In this document: in pieces, positions 4,146 through 18,521 of the stretch | How positions within the stretch are numbered: the stretch's first letter is position 1 | How the letters are laid out: every line of letters starts with the position of its first letter | Source: a virus | Reading direction: 5' to 3' (one strand) | Virus record (IMG/VR): IMGVR_UViG_3300022925_000232 | Location: 1 to 20,428 of that record | Length of the DNA: 20,428 nucleotides | Position numbers and translations under genes: made by a program | Notes under the pieces: model-generated | Told to the model about the DNA's origin: nothing | Databases searched by the model: none | The model's input: only the letters and a program-made list of their open reading frames with translations

Positions 4146-5024
4146 TCACTCCCCATCAATATCTACAAATTCCTCAACGAGGGAGGCATCATCATCGGAG
4201 ATGGAGTTACCAGCCTTTTCGTTGTAGGCATTTAGAATGTATTGATTGTAGTTACCAATCCAATCAATGAAGTCTTGGAATCTTTTCTGATCCGCTTCTT
4301 CAAGATCAATTGTAGATGAAAGATCCAGTGATGGCACTGGTACGTAGTAGGTGACGTTGCCACTGTACTGACCTGTAGTAGTCGTACACTTAATCCAGTG
4401 TTGGACTGGCAAACGCTTCTGTCGGCCTAGCTGAGCGAATGGCTCACCCATCGCCTTGAATGCTTCACCGTTGTCAACTTCCCAGATGAATGGCTGACGG
4501 CCAACTTCAACTTCGTTGCCTTCAGCATCAACAGGATTGACTAACTCGACTTCACCAAGGATGACGCGAGTGCGCTTGATTGTTTTAAAGAAAGCCTGTT
4601 GCTCCTTTGAGTAGTCGCTGTAGTTAGGGATGTACCCAGCAGGCTTACCACAATTGAATGTGCCAGCGTTATCTTTAAGATCGCTATTAAGATCTTCGCC
4701 CATGATTGTTTTGACGTACATATTGTTTTTGTCGTCAAACCGCTTATTCATAAAGCGTTGTACAAAGATGCGAACATTGGCCTGTTCAGCATACACGAAC
4801 GACTCGTCAGGCATTTGAAGACGGAATGTACCTTCAGGCACAACCTCCATGTTCTTCTTCTTGCCATTGACCTCTACCTGTCCCATGACAGCAGAGTTCC
4901 AGATGCGTAGGCGTGGAAGTGTGGATGATTTAGATGAGCCACTGCTCATGTCAGCACCCATGCCCATAGCGTGAGCCATGTCAGCAAAGTTAGCTGTATT
5001 AATAGGTGATACTTCAGTTGTCAT
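4146..5024 (-). CDS. Probable single-stranded DNA-binding protein
   Basis: The 292-residue protein has no motif that proves its function. It combines features of phage ssDNA-binding proteins: a low-complexity Ser/Gly/Met N-terminus, a beta-rich middle with many aromatic residues, and an acidic C-terminal tail with a run of aspartates (SISDDDASL) ending in DIDGE. Acidic tails of this kind recruit replication proteins in T7 gp2.5. It lies between the DNA polymerase and the exonuclease, where an SSB would be expected. The ATG at 5024 is chosen because a perfect AGGAGGT lies six bases upstream. A longer TTG-start frame from 5045 would place that ribosome-binding site inside the gene. The start overlaps the polymerase stop by 11 bases. 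It could instead be another conserved replication accessory protein. Confidence 0.55.
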   Translation of the reverse strand: MTTEVSPINTANFADMAHAMGMGADMSSGSSKSSTLPRLRIWNSAVMGQVEVNGKKKNMEVVPEGTFRLQMPDESFVYAEQANVRIFVQRFMNKRFDDKNNMYVKTIMGEDLNSDLKDNAGTFNCGKPAGYIPNYSDYSKEQQAFFKTIKRTRVILGEVELVNPVDAEGNEVEVGRQPFIWEVDNGEAFKAMGEPFAQLGRQKRLPVQHWIKCTTTTGQYSGNVTYYVPVPSLDLSSTIDLEEADQKRFQDFIDWIGNYNQYILNAYNEKAGNSISDDDASLVEEFVDIDGE

Positions 5025-16571: not shown

Positions 16572-16642
16572 GCCAAAGGCACGCACCAAAACGCAGGCAC
16601 GTAGGCACGTTGATAGTAGCCCGAAAAAAAAAATTTGGGCAT

Positions 16643-16665
16643 AAAAAAACCCTGCCGGAGCAGGG
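16643..16665 (-). terminator. Intrinsic terminator, leftward
   Basis: On the minus strand CCCTGC pairs with GCAGGG around a TCCG loop and is followed by seven T residues (16643-16649), a textbook intrinsic terminator after the 16696-17454 gene. A second, weaker stem (GCCC at 16619-16622 with GGGC at 16637-16640) encloses a run of ten A residues just beyond it. Confidence 0.92.
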
Positions 16666-16677
16666 TCTTGATTCAGT

Positions 16678-16695: not shown

Positions 16696-17454
16696 TTAGA
16701 TTTGCGCCGATTGAATGGCGCGGATTAGTTCGGCTTTTTCAATCCCTAGTTTATCCGCGCGGGTTAACGCATTTTTAACGATTTTGTCTAGCGTATCCTT
16801 TTTTGGATCATTGTCCGATTCATTTTCCGAATCGCTCGCGCTTTGCGCTTTGTCGTATGCATCAAACGCGGAGCGGATAGAATCAGCGTCCAATTCGTGC
16901 AACGGCTTGATGCGCTTTTTCGCAACTGACTGTCGCCATGCTTCCAAAGCTTGCAATTCGGTTTCACGCTGATAAACCACAATGTAGGCGCGTCTTTGTC
17001 CGCGCGAATAATGCGATAAATCAAACGATTCTAAAACCGATTCCAGAGTGGAATTGTTCACTAAAGTTTTACCGTCTTTTTCATATTCGGCTTGAATCTG
17101 GAATCCGCGCAAAGCTTTACCAATTGCGACAAAGTCCGCGATGTTCTTTTCATTACGCGATTTCATCTCGCGCTCTTTGCGCTTGATCAAAGTTGCTCGC
17201 GCTTTGTTTTCTTTGCCGAATGACTCCGCGATTTGCTCAACTGTCAGCGCAACTTTAGACACATCCGCGCGAACTGCCGCGCCCTTTGCTTTACGCTCGC
17301 GCCCTTTGTTCTTTGCCGCGCCCTTGATATCTGAATCGCGCTCTTTGCTCTTCAAATCATCAAAAGCTTTTTCAGCAACTTTCTTTGCATCGTCAGCAAA
17401 GTCAGCACCGAAACGATGCGCGGGAGTCAGATCAACTACGTTTAAATTTTTCAT
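16696..17454 (-). CDS. Charged hypothetical protein, first gene of the leftward arm
   Basis: This 252-residue protein is very rich in Lys, Arg, Glu, Asp and Ala and mostly helical, with likely coiled-coil stretches. No domain is recognised. A long basic region (about residues 45-100, including KNKGRERKAKGAA and LIKRKEREMKSR) suggests nucleic-acid binding. The middle has an aromatic patch (LSHYSRGQRRAYIVVYQRE), and the end is an acidic linker followed by a short helix (KADKLGIEKAELIRAIQSAQ). As the first gene after the main leftward promoter it is likely expressed early. It could be the regulator of the nearby repeats, but this is not shown. Codon use differs from most neighbours, with frequent GCG and CGC. 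AAGGA lies eight bases before the ATG. Confidence 0.75.
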   Translation of the reverse strand: MKNLNVVDLTPAHRFGADFADDAKKVAEKAFDDLKSKERDSDIKGAAKNKGRERKAKGAAVRADVSKVALTVEQIAESFGKENKARATLIKRKEREMKSRNEKNIADFVAIGKALRGFQIQAEYEKDGKTLVNNSTLESVLESFDLSHYSRGQRRAYIVVYQRETELQALEAWRQSVAKKRIKPLHELDADSIRSAFDAYDKAQSASDSENESDNDPKKDTLDKIVKNALTRADKLGIEKAELIRAIQSAQI

Positions 17455-17499
17455 AACTTCATTCCTTTATTTGAAATTGATATTTGTACTCGAGCCATT

Positions 17500-17528
17500 A
17501 TTAAACCACTACCGCGAATCAGAGTCAA
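17500..17528 (-). promoter_or_regulatory. Main leftward sigma70-type promoter
   Basis: On the minus strand TTGACT (17523-17528) is followed after 17 bases by TTTAAT (17500-17505). The predicted start near 17493 leaves a leader of about 40 bases with an AAGGA site before the 16696-17454 gene. The hairpin element at 17534-17548 ends only five bases upstream of the -35 box. Confidence 0.75.
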
Positions 17529-17533
17529 CACCC

Positions 17534-17573
17534 GTAGGAAAATCCCACACCAAAGAGCGTAGGAAAATCCTAC
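17534..17573 (-). repeat. Dispersed hairpin elements, adjacent pair
   Basis: Two copies lie 10 bases apart: the wobble variant GTGGGATTTTCCTAC (17534-17548) and a perfect core (17559-17573). Both have an outer U.G wobble pair on leftward RNA. They lie upstream of the mapped -35 box, so they would be in RNA only if a more upstream leftward start exists; otherwise they act as DNA sites. Confidence 0.85.
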
Positions 17574-17583
17574 ACCTACCATG

Positions 17584-17878
17584 CGCAAATATTGCGTGAC
17601 GCAAATTGTGCGTGTCCCTATCGCGTATAAAAGGAACGCGCGTAGCAATAACCATGCCAACTATGTGGACACGCAAAAATTGCAGGTAGTATCTGGACAC
17701 GCAAATTGTGCGGTATAGATGCTTCACCATTGCAACACGCGCACGTTTTGCGTGTCGCACTTTTTGCGTCTCACTCTGGCTATCAAGTGATTAGATATCA
17801 GTTGACGGATAGCACGCAAATATTGCGCTTTTGACCCTTTATCCGCACATTTTGCGCGTTTTAGCCGCACATATTGCG
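17584..17878. repeat. Cluster of nine 13-bp dyad iterons, CGCA-N5-TGCG
   Basis: Nine sites start at 17584, 17600, 17672, 17700, 17740, 17756, 17815, 17844 and 17866. Eight fit CGCA-N5-TGCG exactly; the one at 17672 ends TGCA. The five inner bases are mostly A/T. Two pairs are spaced 16 bp start to start. Sites at 17600, 17672 and 17700 share a GGACA-type flank on one side, suggesting a longer symmetric site. This pattern fits binding by a dimeric regulator or replication initiator. Confidence 0.85.
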
Positions 17879-17927
17879 CATTTTGTTGGTGGGGCGGGCG
17901 AGAGCCACCCCCGGTACCCACGTACAC

Positions 17928-17994
17928 ATATACACAGAAATACACAGAAGTGGATTTTGAAGTGTAAACCACAATGTACATGAGGCTATCCACA
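17928..17994 (+). other. DnaA-box-like sites and TACACAGAA repeats
   Basis: A tandem pair of 10-bp units (TACACAGAAA and TACACAGAAG) covers 17931-17950. ATATACACA (17928-17936) and CTATCCACA (17986-17994) are each one mismatch from the DnaA consensus TTWTNCACA, and AAATACACA (17938-17946) is two mismatches away. Such matches occur by chance in AT-rich DNA, so they support an origin only weakly. Confidence 0.35.
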
Positions 17995-18066
17995 CGATAG
18001 CTATTTTCTATGATAAACCATGGGTATGTATAGTTAGTATCTATCAGTATCATAGCTATTATTAAC

Positions 18067-18094
18067 TTGACTTATTCTTAGTTCTGGATATAAC
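18067..18094 (+). promoter_or_regulatory. Rightward sigma70-type promoter P1
   Basis: TTGACT (18067-18072) is followed after 16 bases by TATAAC (18089-18094). Both boxes are one mismatch from consensus. It would give a leader of about 200 bases before the first rightward gene. Confidence 0.65.
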
Positions 18095-18157
18095 TCATTA
18101 CTGAAAGTGATGATAAGAAGAAGAAAACAACAAAGTCCTGAAAAAAAGATGTAAAAT

Positions 18158-18194
18158 ACACTGTCAGTGTAACACTTAAATGTACACTTAAATG
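18158..18194 (+). promoter_or_regulatory. Palindrome and tandem direct repeats upstream of P2
   Basis: A perfect 13-base palindrome ACACTGTCAGTGT (18158-18170) is followed by two exact copies of ACACTTAAATG (18172-18182 and 18184-18194, period 12). They end five bases before the P2 -35 box, where an activator or repressor site is expected. Confidence 0.65.
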
Positions 18195-18199
18195 AACCC

Positions 18200-18228
18200 T
18201 TGCATAGATGAAGTATCTGTGCTAGAAT
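18200..18228 (+). promoter_or_regulatory. Rightward sigma70-type promoter P2
   Basis: TTGCAT (18200-18205) is followed after 17 bases by TAGAAT (18223-18228). The predicted start near 18235 gives a leader of about 77 bases before the ATG at 18312. The spacing is ideal, and repeats lie directly upstream. Confidence 0.65.
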
Positions 18229-18282
18229 CTGTACATCCCATCCAGAGTGATACAATCTGTATCTGCTCATTTGTCAATTTCC

Positions 18283-18310
18283 TTGACATTTTCAATTTTC
18301 CGAATATAAC
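18283..18310 (+). promoter_or_regulatory. Rightward sigma70-type promoter P3, overlapping a start codon
   Basis: A perfect TTGACA (18283-18288) is followed after 16 bases by TATAAC (18305-18310). Its expected start, near 18317, lies just inside the first codons of the gene at 18312, so transcripts from P3 could not make that protein from this ATG. It may serve the downstream genes. Confidence 0.55.
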
Positions 18311-18311
18311 T

Positions 18312-18521
18312 ATGTATAAATTTGAAAGATCCCGTGAGGGACTACTAGAAAAAGTTTACGATTGTTTAAGGACTGGTACGTCTTTAGACAGTGTTCATAT
18401 ACCGCATTCAGATGTATTCTTTGTGCGTGAAGCATTGGAGGACCGCTTTGGGCGGTCTTTGTCATTATTACAAGTTGAAGAATACATGAAAGAAGCAGGT
18501 TGGACGGATGGCAACAACTAA
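18312..18521 (+). CDS. Hypothetical protein, first gene of the rightward arm
   Basis: This 69-residue protein starts MYKFERSREGLLEKVY and ends in a helix (LLQVEEYMKEAGWTDGNN). No recognised family. The ATG at 18312 has no clear ribosome-binding site. A longer frame from 18192 would be read through promoters P2 and P3 and begins with an unlikely Cys-rich stretch, so the shorter start is preferred. It overlaps the next gene by 14 bases. Confidence 0.7.
   Translation: MYKFERSREGLLEKVYDCLRTGTSLDSVHIPHSDVFFVREALEDRFGRSLSLLQVEEYMKEAGWTDGNN

Follow-up and report, generated by a model that had tools for sequence, protein, structure and literature searches.

A lineage-specific array of CGCA-N5-TGCG dyads adjoins a conserved, probably pac-bearing element in an HMO-2011-type marine phage

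What is the role of a tight cluster of short palindromes at the point where the early and late genes of a marine phage diverge? The window, by which we mean the whole 20,428-bp IMG/VR contig that was analysed, is a fragment of an HMO-2011-type marine podovirus; phages of this type belong to the most abundant viruses of the sea. The DNA polymerase encoded in the window shares 63% identity with that of Puniceispirillum phage HMO-2011 and 60-54% with those of the roseophages CRP-1, CRP-345, CRP-603, CRP-2 and CRP-207. The leftward genes encode a ribonucleotide reductase, endonuclease I, a polymerase with a DnaJ-like insert, endonuclease VII, a helicase, a primase, a tyrosine integrase and gp88, and those running rightward open the late module; the palindromes sit in the long gap between these early and late genes. 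The first leftward gene is a 252-aa ORF with no database match (16696..17454, minus strand), and the first rightward gene (18312..18521, plus strand) encodes a conserved small protein with a VHIPxSDVFxVR motif and a weak winged-helix match, whose predicted structure (three helices, pLDDT 66) was too weak for a fold search. After the 252-aa gene, a GC-rich hairpin followed by a T-run was seen by eye on the minus strand at 16640-16672, absent from the scan list; it is probably a leftward terminator, making the 252-aa gene a separate transcription unit. The isolate phage collection contained no near-identical genome, and a host search in genome contigs returned distant relatives only, nearly all of them from metagenome bins of diverse taxa.

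The first-pass annotation had reported eight exact and one near-exact CGCA-N5-TGCG dyads within 295 bp, and counting, shuffling and Markov modelling all confirmed this. The window holds exactly eight perfect copies, all inside 17584-17878, whereas 100 dinucleotide shuffles contained 0.13 on average and two at most. In the intergenic stretch 17455-18311, 8 of the 10 CGCA words and 8 of the 9 TGCG words have their partner at N5 exactly; all other spacings between 0 and 20 are without a single CGCA/TGCG pair, and Markov models of order 1-3 for the stretch yielded two dyads at most. The sites, read on the plus strand, are CGCAAATATTGCG (dyad 1, 17584..17596), CGCAAATTGTGCG (dyad 2, 17600..17612), CGCAAAAATTGCA with its one mismatch (dyad 3, 17672..17684), CGCAAATTGTGCG again (dyad 4, 17700..17712), CGCACGTTTTGCG (dyad 5, 17740..17752), CGCACTTTTTGCG (dyad 6, 17756..17768), CGCAAATATTGCG again (dyad 7, 17815..17827), CGCACATTTTGCG (dyad 8, 17844..17856) and CGCACATATTGCG (dyad 9, 17866..17878). 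Their start-to-start spacings are irregular (16, 72, 28, 40, 16, 59, 29 and 22 bp), and the longer symmetric flanks that had been noted, GGACACGCA / TGCGTGTCC, are common to some dyads only. The annotation had also said that no described phage system is known to carry the motif; a search of the literature for the literal string CGCANNNNNTGCG together with 'phage' found none, which agrees with the statement but is only a weak test of it.

Directly to the right of the array lies a conserved element of about 90 bp (17881..17970, plus strand; GGGGCGGGCGAGAGCCACC at 17891-17909 and ATACACAGAAGTGG at 17940-17953), which the first-pass annotation had not mentioned. A profile search with this element recovered 111 loci, including HMO-2011, five CRP roseophages and about 100 IMG/VR contigs, and matched the window with an E value of 6.5e-17.

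We located relatives by two anchors, the gene at 18312..18521 and phrog_7595. Among the 80 loci gathered through the conserved rightward gene phrog_7595, the exact motif occurred at the array's place in near-clonal contigs only; the contigs L001-L003, in which the 252-aa neighbour is matched by a protein of 100% identity, have all eight exact sites at unchanged positions. A de novo dyad search revealed other dyads in the same gap of several phrog_7595 relatives. Five non-clonal relatives keep CGCA dyads at the same place (L022, L024, L025, L118 and L135), and in all five the conserved element directly adjoins them. L022, L024 and L025 were first recovered solely because they contain a pair of CGCA dyads; the presence of the element beside dyads found in this way independently supports the conclusion that motif and place belong together. 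In more distant relatives the CGCA dyads are replaced at the same place by other dyads, mostly TTTGTGATCACAAA.

The extent of this replacement was assessed to the left of the element in 80 non-redundant relatives. TTTGTGATCACAAA was found in about 25 lineages and CGCA-N5-TGCG in 6, one of which comprises the clones of the window; further types were TGTACAAAWTTTGTACA, GTTTA-N4-TAAAC, TGCA-N4-TGCA and ATTC-type dyads. The laboratory roseophages CRP-1, CRP-2 and CRP-603 have TTTGTGATCACAAA sites. In about half of these 80 relatives an array of some dyad type stands to the left of the element at a distance of 15-300 bp; in about half no array passes our counting rule, partly as a result of degenerate sites (for example, in L179). 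A comparison of L179 with L032 as an array-free pair was dropped, since degenerate GTGACCAC sites are present. In motif-bearing contigs, 44 CGCA dyads lie within 500 bp left of the element and 8 in 65 kb elsewhere; similarly, GTGATCAC occurs 106 times in the 50.5 kb adjoining the element and 15 times in 855 kb elsewhere. The dyads are thus neither missing from the same place in close relatives, five non-clonal ones having kept them and more distant ones having swapped them, nor equally dense elsewhere, the two outcomes that had been named in advance as speaking against the array.

At orthologous sites, conservation of the dyad arms equals or exceeds that of the spacers and flanks. Between the window and L135, the identity is 62/64 at arm positions, 32/40 in spacers and 147/180 at other positions; the corresponding values are 52/64, 31/40 and 136/207 for L022, and 40/40, 22/25 and 100/104 for L024. 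Arm positions are the best kept in all three, most clearly in L135, the margin of arms over spacers being small in L022 and L024 being nearly identical throughout. At dyad 5 all three relatives keep the arms while the spacer varies, and the place orthologous to the imperfect dyad 3 reads CGCAAAAATTGCG in L022 and L135. In L025 and L118, the CGCA and GTACA dyad types stand side by side, as would be expected if specificities drift from one to another.

Two repeat patterns in these left flanks are worth noting. In L109, L166 and L184, the TGCA-N4-TGCA unit occurs three times at intervals of exactly 22 bp, 214-259 bp left of the element; this is the place occupied by TTTGTGATCACAAA dyads in sister phages. 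Many relatives also carry a short repeat, CAAnn(n)CTTA[AG] (e.g. AAAATCAATGACTTAGC), mostly on one strand, with 36 matches in 74 loci against 2.2 in shuffles.

Within the window's array lies a second conserved feature, the inverted repeat CAAGTGA-N7-TCAGTTG (17784..17804, plus strand), with 7-bp arms and a 7-bp centre. Its distance from the element, on the left side, is about 139 bp in many lineages and about 101 bp in the window's own. Across 24 sequences the arms covary, with 20 cells in which both sides change against 7.4 ± 1.8 in shuffles, and the signal is lost when the partner is slid. The fixed offset and the paired changes are stronger evidence than the percentage of paired positions, which is inflated because the 21-mers were chosen by symmetry. 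A search for structured RNA (RNAalifold) yielded small hairpins only.

The identity of the adjoining element is suggested by Sinorhizobium phage PhiM6 (MH700630), a headful-packaging relative of HMO-2011 in which position 1 of the record is the pac cleavage site assigned by PhageTerm (PMC6256558). Position 1 falls in the corresponding gap, with early genes running leftward from it and terminase and capsid genes running rightward, in the same orientation as in the window. When the 68-kb PhiM6 genome was searched with the element HMM, the best match lay on the expected strand at 47-93, which is 46 bp from position 1. The match is weak (5.9 bits, E 0.45 genome-wide), but we estimate at about 1 in 1000 the chance that the best PhiM6 match would fall on the right strand and no more than 50 bp from the cut; by eye, AGGCAGGGCCAAGGGTGGGGTAC of PhiM6 also matches AGGCAGGGGCCACGGGTGGGGTGTAC of CRP-2. 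Because the best match in the whole genome lies so close to the mapped cleavage, the conserved element is probably the pac core. The two regions are further alike in belonging to the same phage group and in the presence of other short repeats, of the TTAAC...GTTAA type, left of the PhiM6 cut; PhiM6 differs in having no CGCA dyads and an element recognisable in its core only. Homology to PhiM6 would place the pac cut of the window near 17842, between dyads 7 and 8, whereas the TTTGTGATCACAAA sites of other lineages, at -140 to -260, do not straddle the corresponding cut. Contig left ends are frequent up to 700 bp left of the element and show no sharp position; a cos site with fixed ends is not supported, as these ends are spread and the only mapped relative, PhiM6, is headful.

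The best reading of these data is that the dyads, as an array specific to the lineage, serve a dimeric DNA-binding protein within a control region for packaging, possibly also for replication. The nine dyads would be candidate sites for a sequence-specific dimer, encoded by phage or host, that assembles on the long early/late intergenic region. There the array would abut the pac site at which headful packaging starts, straddling it if the PhiM6 homology holds, and, with the core element and the inverted repeat, it would mark or remodel the DNA for packaging initiation; it may serve replication too. We give a role in packaging initiation, exerted other than by direct reading through the small terminase, slightly less than an even chance. 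Weighing against it are the low score of the PhiM6 match, the TTTGTGATCACAAA sites that do not straddle the cut, the many relatives in which no clear array is seen, the uncoupling of dyad type from the small terminase, and the failure of a flank search to turn up a type-specific gene for the binder. The first-pass annotation had offered an origin or an operator array. Its description of a protein-site-like array at the early/late divergence is upheld, with the arms conserved; an origin or operator role is conceivable, and packaging initiation is a third and better-anchored context, since the adjoining element matches the PhiM6 pac region.

Which protein might read the dyads? The small terminase (TerS) was considered and set aside by an indirect test, in which TerS identity proved uncoupled from dyad type: L153 and L184 have TerS proteins that are 98.8% identical and different dyads, while CRP-1 and L078 have TerS proteins only 54% identical and the same dyads. 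Because dyad type does not track TerS identity, TerS is probably not the protein that reads the motif directly. This uncoupling is compatible with a packaging role: SPP1 and SF6 have pac regions in which a conserved cleavage region goes together with repeat boxes that vary from one close relative to the next, and the DNA-binding domain of SF6 TerS is largely sequence-independent, with little sequence preference (PMC4737164). The 252-aa neighbour, which had been proposed for binding tests, turned out to be a weak candidate, since none of the left-side ORFs compared is homologous to it and it is absent from the ORFs of L118, which carries CGCA dyads together with 4.2 kb of left flank. Its single-sequence AlphaFold model was poor (pLDDT 50). 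Among the genes in the 5-kb left flanks, none tracks dyad type beyond ORFs that read through the repeats, and a host protein is a possible binder.

The SPP1/SF6 pac region (pacL, pacC and pacR, with boxes A, B and C) resembles the present locus in being a multi-repeat region around a headful cut. In SPP1, however, pac overlaps the promoter and start of terS, and the boxes are direct repeats, whereas the sites in the window are 13-bp palindromes with conserved arms; in L118, terS lies about 3 kb right of the element, so that the repeats do not cover its promoter or start. A bolder reading is that HMO-2011-type phages pair a conserved pac element with a dyad array that can be switched, close relatives exchanging it without a matching change of terminase. 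In that case the array would be a rapidly evolving determinant of specificity, whether for packaging, replication or segregation, that a putative protein reads, comparable to the diversification of immunity or incompatibility regions. We regard this as conceivable, if rather unlikely. Should the array be a specificity determinant that switches while TerS stays unchanged, the context of the packaging site would be separated from terminase evolution to an unusual degree.

Two papers on the HMO-2011-type group that were searched for terms concerning termini or control regions contain nothing on the array region. The array is the lineage-specific part of a conserved control region, probably bearing pac, of an abundant marine phage group, and from sequence comparison it looks like a fast-changing protein-docking site in the main control region. 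The comparison yields a probable pac element across about 100 genomes, a conserved inverted repeat and the adjoining lineage-specific dyad arrays, and the roles in packaging, origin function and regulation are directly testable in cultured members (CRP-1, CRP-603 and PhiM6).

The motif by itself does not reveal its function. A motif scan found CGCA-N5-TGCG pairs in 11 other contigs, mostly as isolated pairs, with clusters in L013, L020, L023 and L026. The three clusters that were examined lie in different gene contexts of unrelated phages, namely inside an initiator gene (L013), between terS and terL (L020) and beside a CI gene (L026), and the motif alone is therefore not diagnostic.

The L013 case bears on a replication origin, in which an initiator would bind the dyads as an iteron-like array and open the adjacent AT-rich DNA, pac merely sharing the intergenic region. 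Confinement of the array to one locus is as expected of a cis-acting site, the 18001-18500 stretch to its right is AT-rich (34% GC), and the dyads of L013, an unrelated phage, offer a lambda-ori-like analogy by lying inside an O-like initiator gene. The GC-skew minimum that the first-pass annotation had suggested looking for was indeed found at the array, as a cumulative minimum at 17.5-18.0 kb, but it coincides with the switch of coding strand and hence does not prove an origin. Lambda-O-type iteron origins likewise consist of clustered short symmetric sites; the window's array differs from them in its irregular rather than regular tandem spacing, in its intergenic position beside a pac-like element and in the lack of an initiator gene, no initiator family having matched the neighbouring ORFs scanned, although unrecognised families are possible. 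In addition, core replication sites would be expected to be kept, yet the motif is exchanged between close relatives. An origin is a contender that we nonetheless think rather unlikely. The L013 cluster itself (4289-4371; four dyads with a 23-bp period; phrog_678, 1.5e-6) is likely a lambda-type origin.

Alternatively, the dyads could be an array of operators for an early regulator or immunity repressor that diverges fast, a change of motif then marking a change of immunity type. Such a system would fit the switching of dyad type without a change of TerS, and the unrelated L026 has a CI-repressor gene (PF07022, 1.4e-11) with three such dyads next to it. The HMO-2011-type group includes temperate phages, CRP-3 integrating in tRNA-Met (PMC6918029), and the window phage has its integrase. 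The array does lie between the leftward and rightward promoters, as had been annotated. By eye we recognised one leftward sigma70-like promoter on the early side (TTGACT-N17-TTTAAT, 17500..17528, minus strand) and two rightward ones (TTGACT...TATAAC, 18067..18094, and TTGACA...TATAAC, 18283..18310, both plus strand), none of which was reported by a stricter promoter scan of the window. The dyads overlap none of the three, starting about 55 bp upstream of the leftward -35 box; the remainder of the 20-kb window contains none of them, and no repressor gene was matched among the window proteins scanned or in the compared left flanks.

Moreover, the operator positions are already taken, on the leftward side by GTAGGAAAATCCYAC palindromes and, over the rightward promoters of relatives, by AGTT-N-AACT dyads. 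Two GTAGGAAAATCCYAC palindromes (17534..17573), distinct from the CGCA array, adjoin the leftward promoter. This 15-bp palindrome has eight copies in the window (10687, 14182, 15533, 16270, 16557, 16678, 17534 and 17559) where 0 are expected; one is inside the primase ORF, and the seven others are intergenic, mostly a short way upstream of where leftward genes start. Among all loci fetched, it was found only in the window's near-clonal lineage. The GTAGGAAAATCCYAC palindromes are candidate dispersed operators or RNA hairpins and, with GTAGGAAAATCCTAC beside the leftward promoter, a better operator candidate than the CGCA dyads. Cluster A mycobacteriophages have stoperators, which are lineage-specific short repressor sites, asymmetric and scattered over the genome. 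The CGCA dyads share with them the lineage-specific occurrence of short sites in a phage group but are symmetric and confined to one locus, and the GTAGGAAAATCCYAC set is the more stoperator-like of the two. An operator array appears quite improbable. The AGTT-N-AACT dyads, in four to eight copies over the rightward promoters upstream of the first rightward gene, were seen in L048, L043, L037, L078 and L042, and an array of this kind as such is absent in the window.

Whatever likelihood is left after packaging, origin and operator falls to segregation or other roles. As a segregation or host-hijack site, the dyads would act as a centromere array resembling parS, to which a ParB-type protein or some other nucleoid protein of the host would bind. 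Dyad arrays found at one locus only do recall plasmid centromeres, and L038 has a perfect 16-bp chromosomal parS near its TTTGTGATCACAAA dyads, but such a site is very improbable, as L038 is nearly the only parS case, no parS within 3 mismatches occurs in the window and no ParA/ParB family matched the window proteins scanned. The L038 site (TGTTTCACGTGAAACA, 1292-1307) shares one stretch with the TTTGTGATCACAAA dyads, about 260 bp to the left of the pac-like element, and a copy of parS with one mismatch is present in L138 at 4212.
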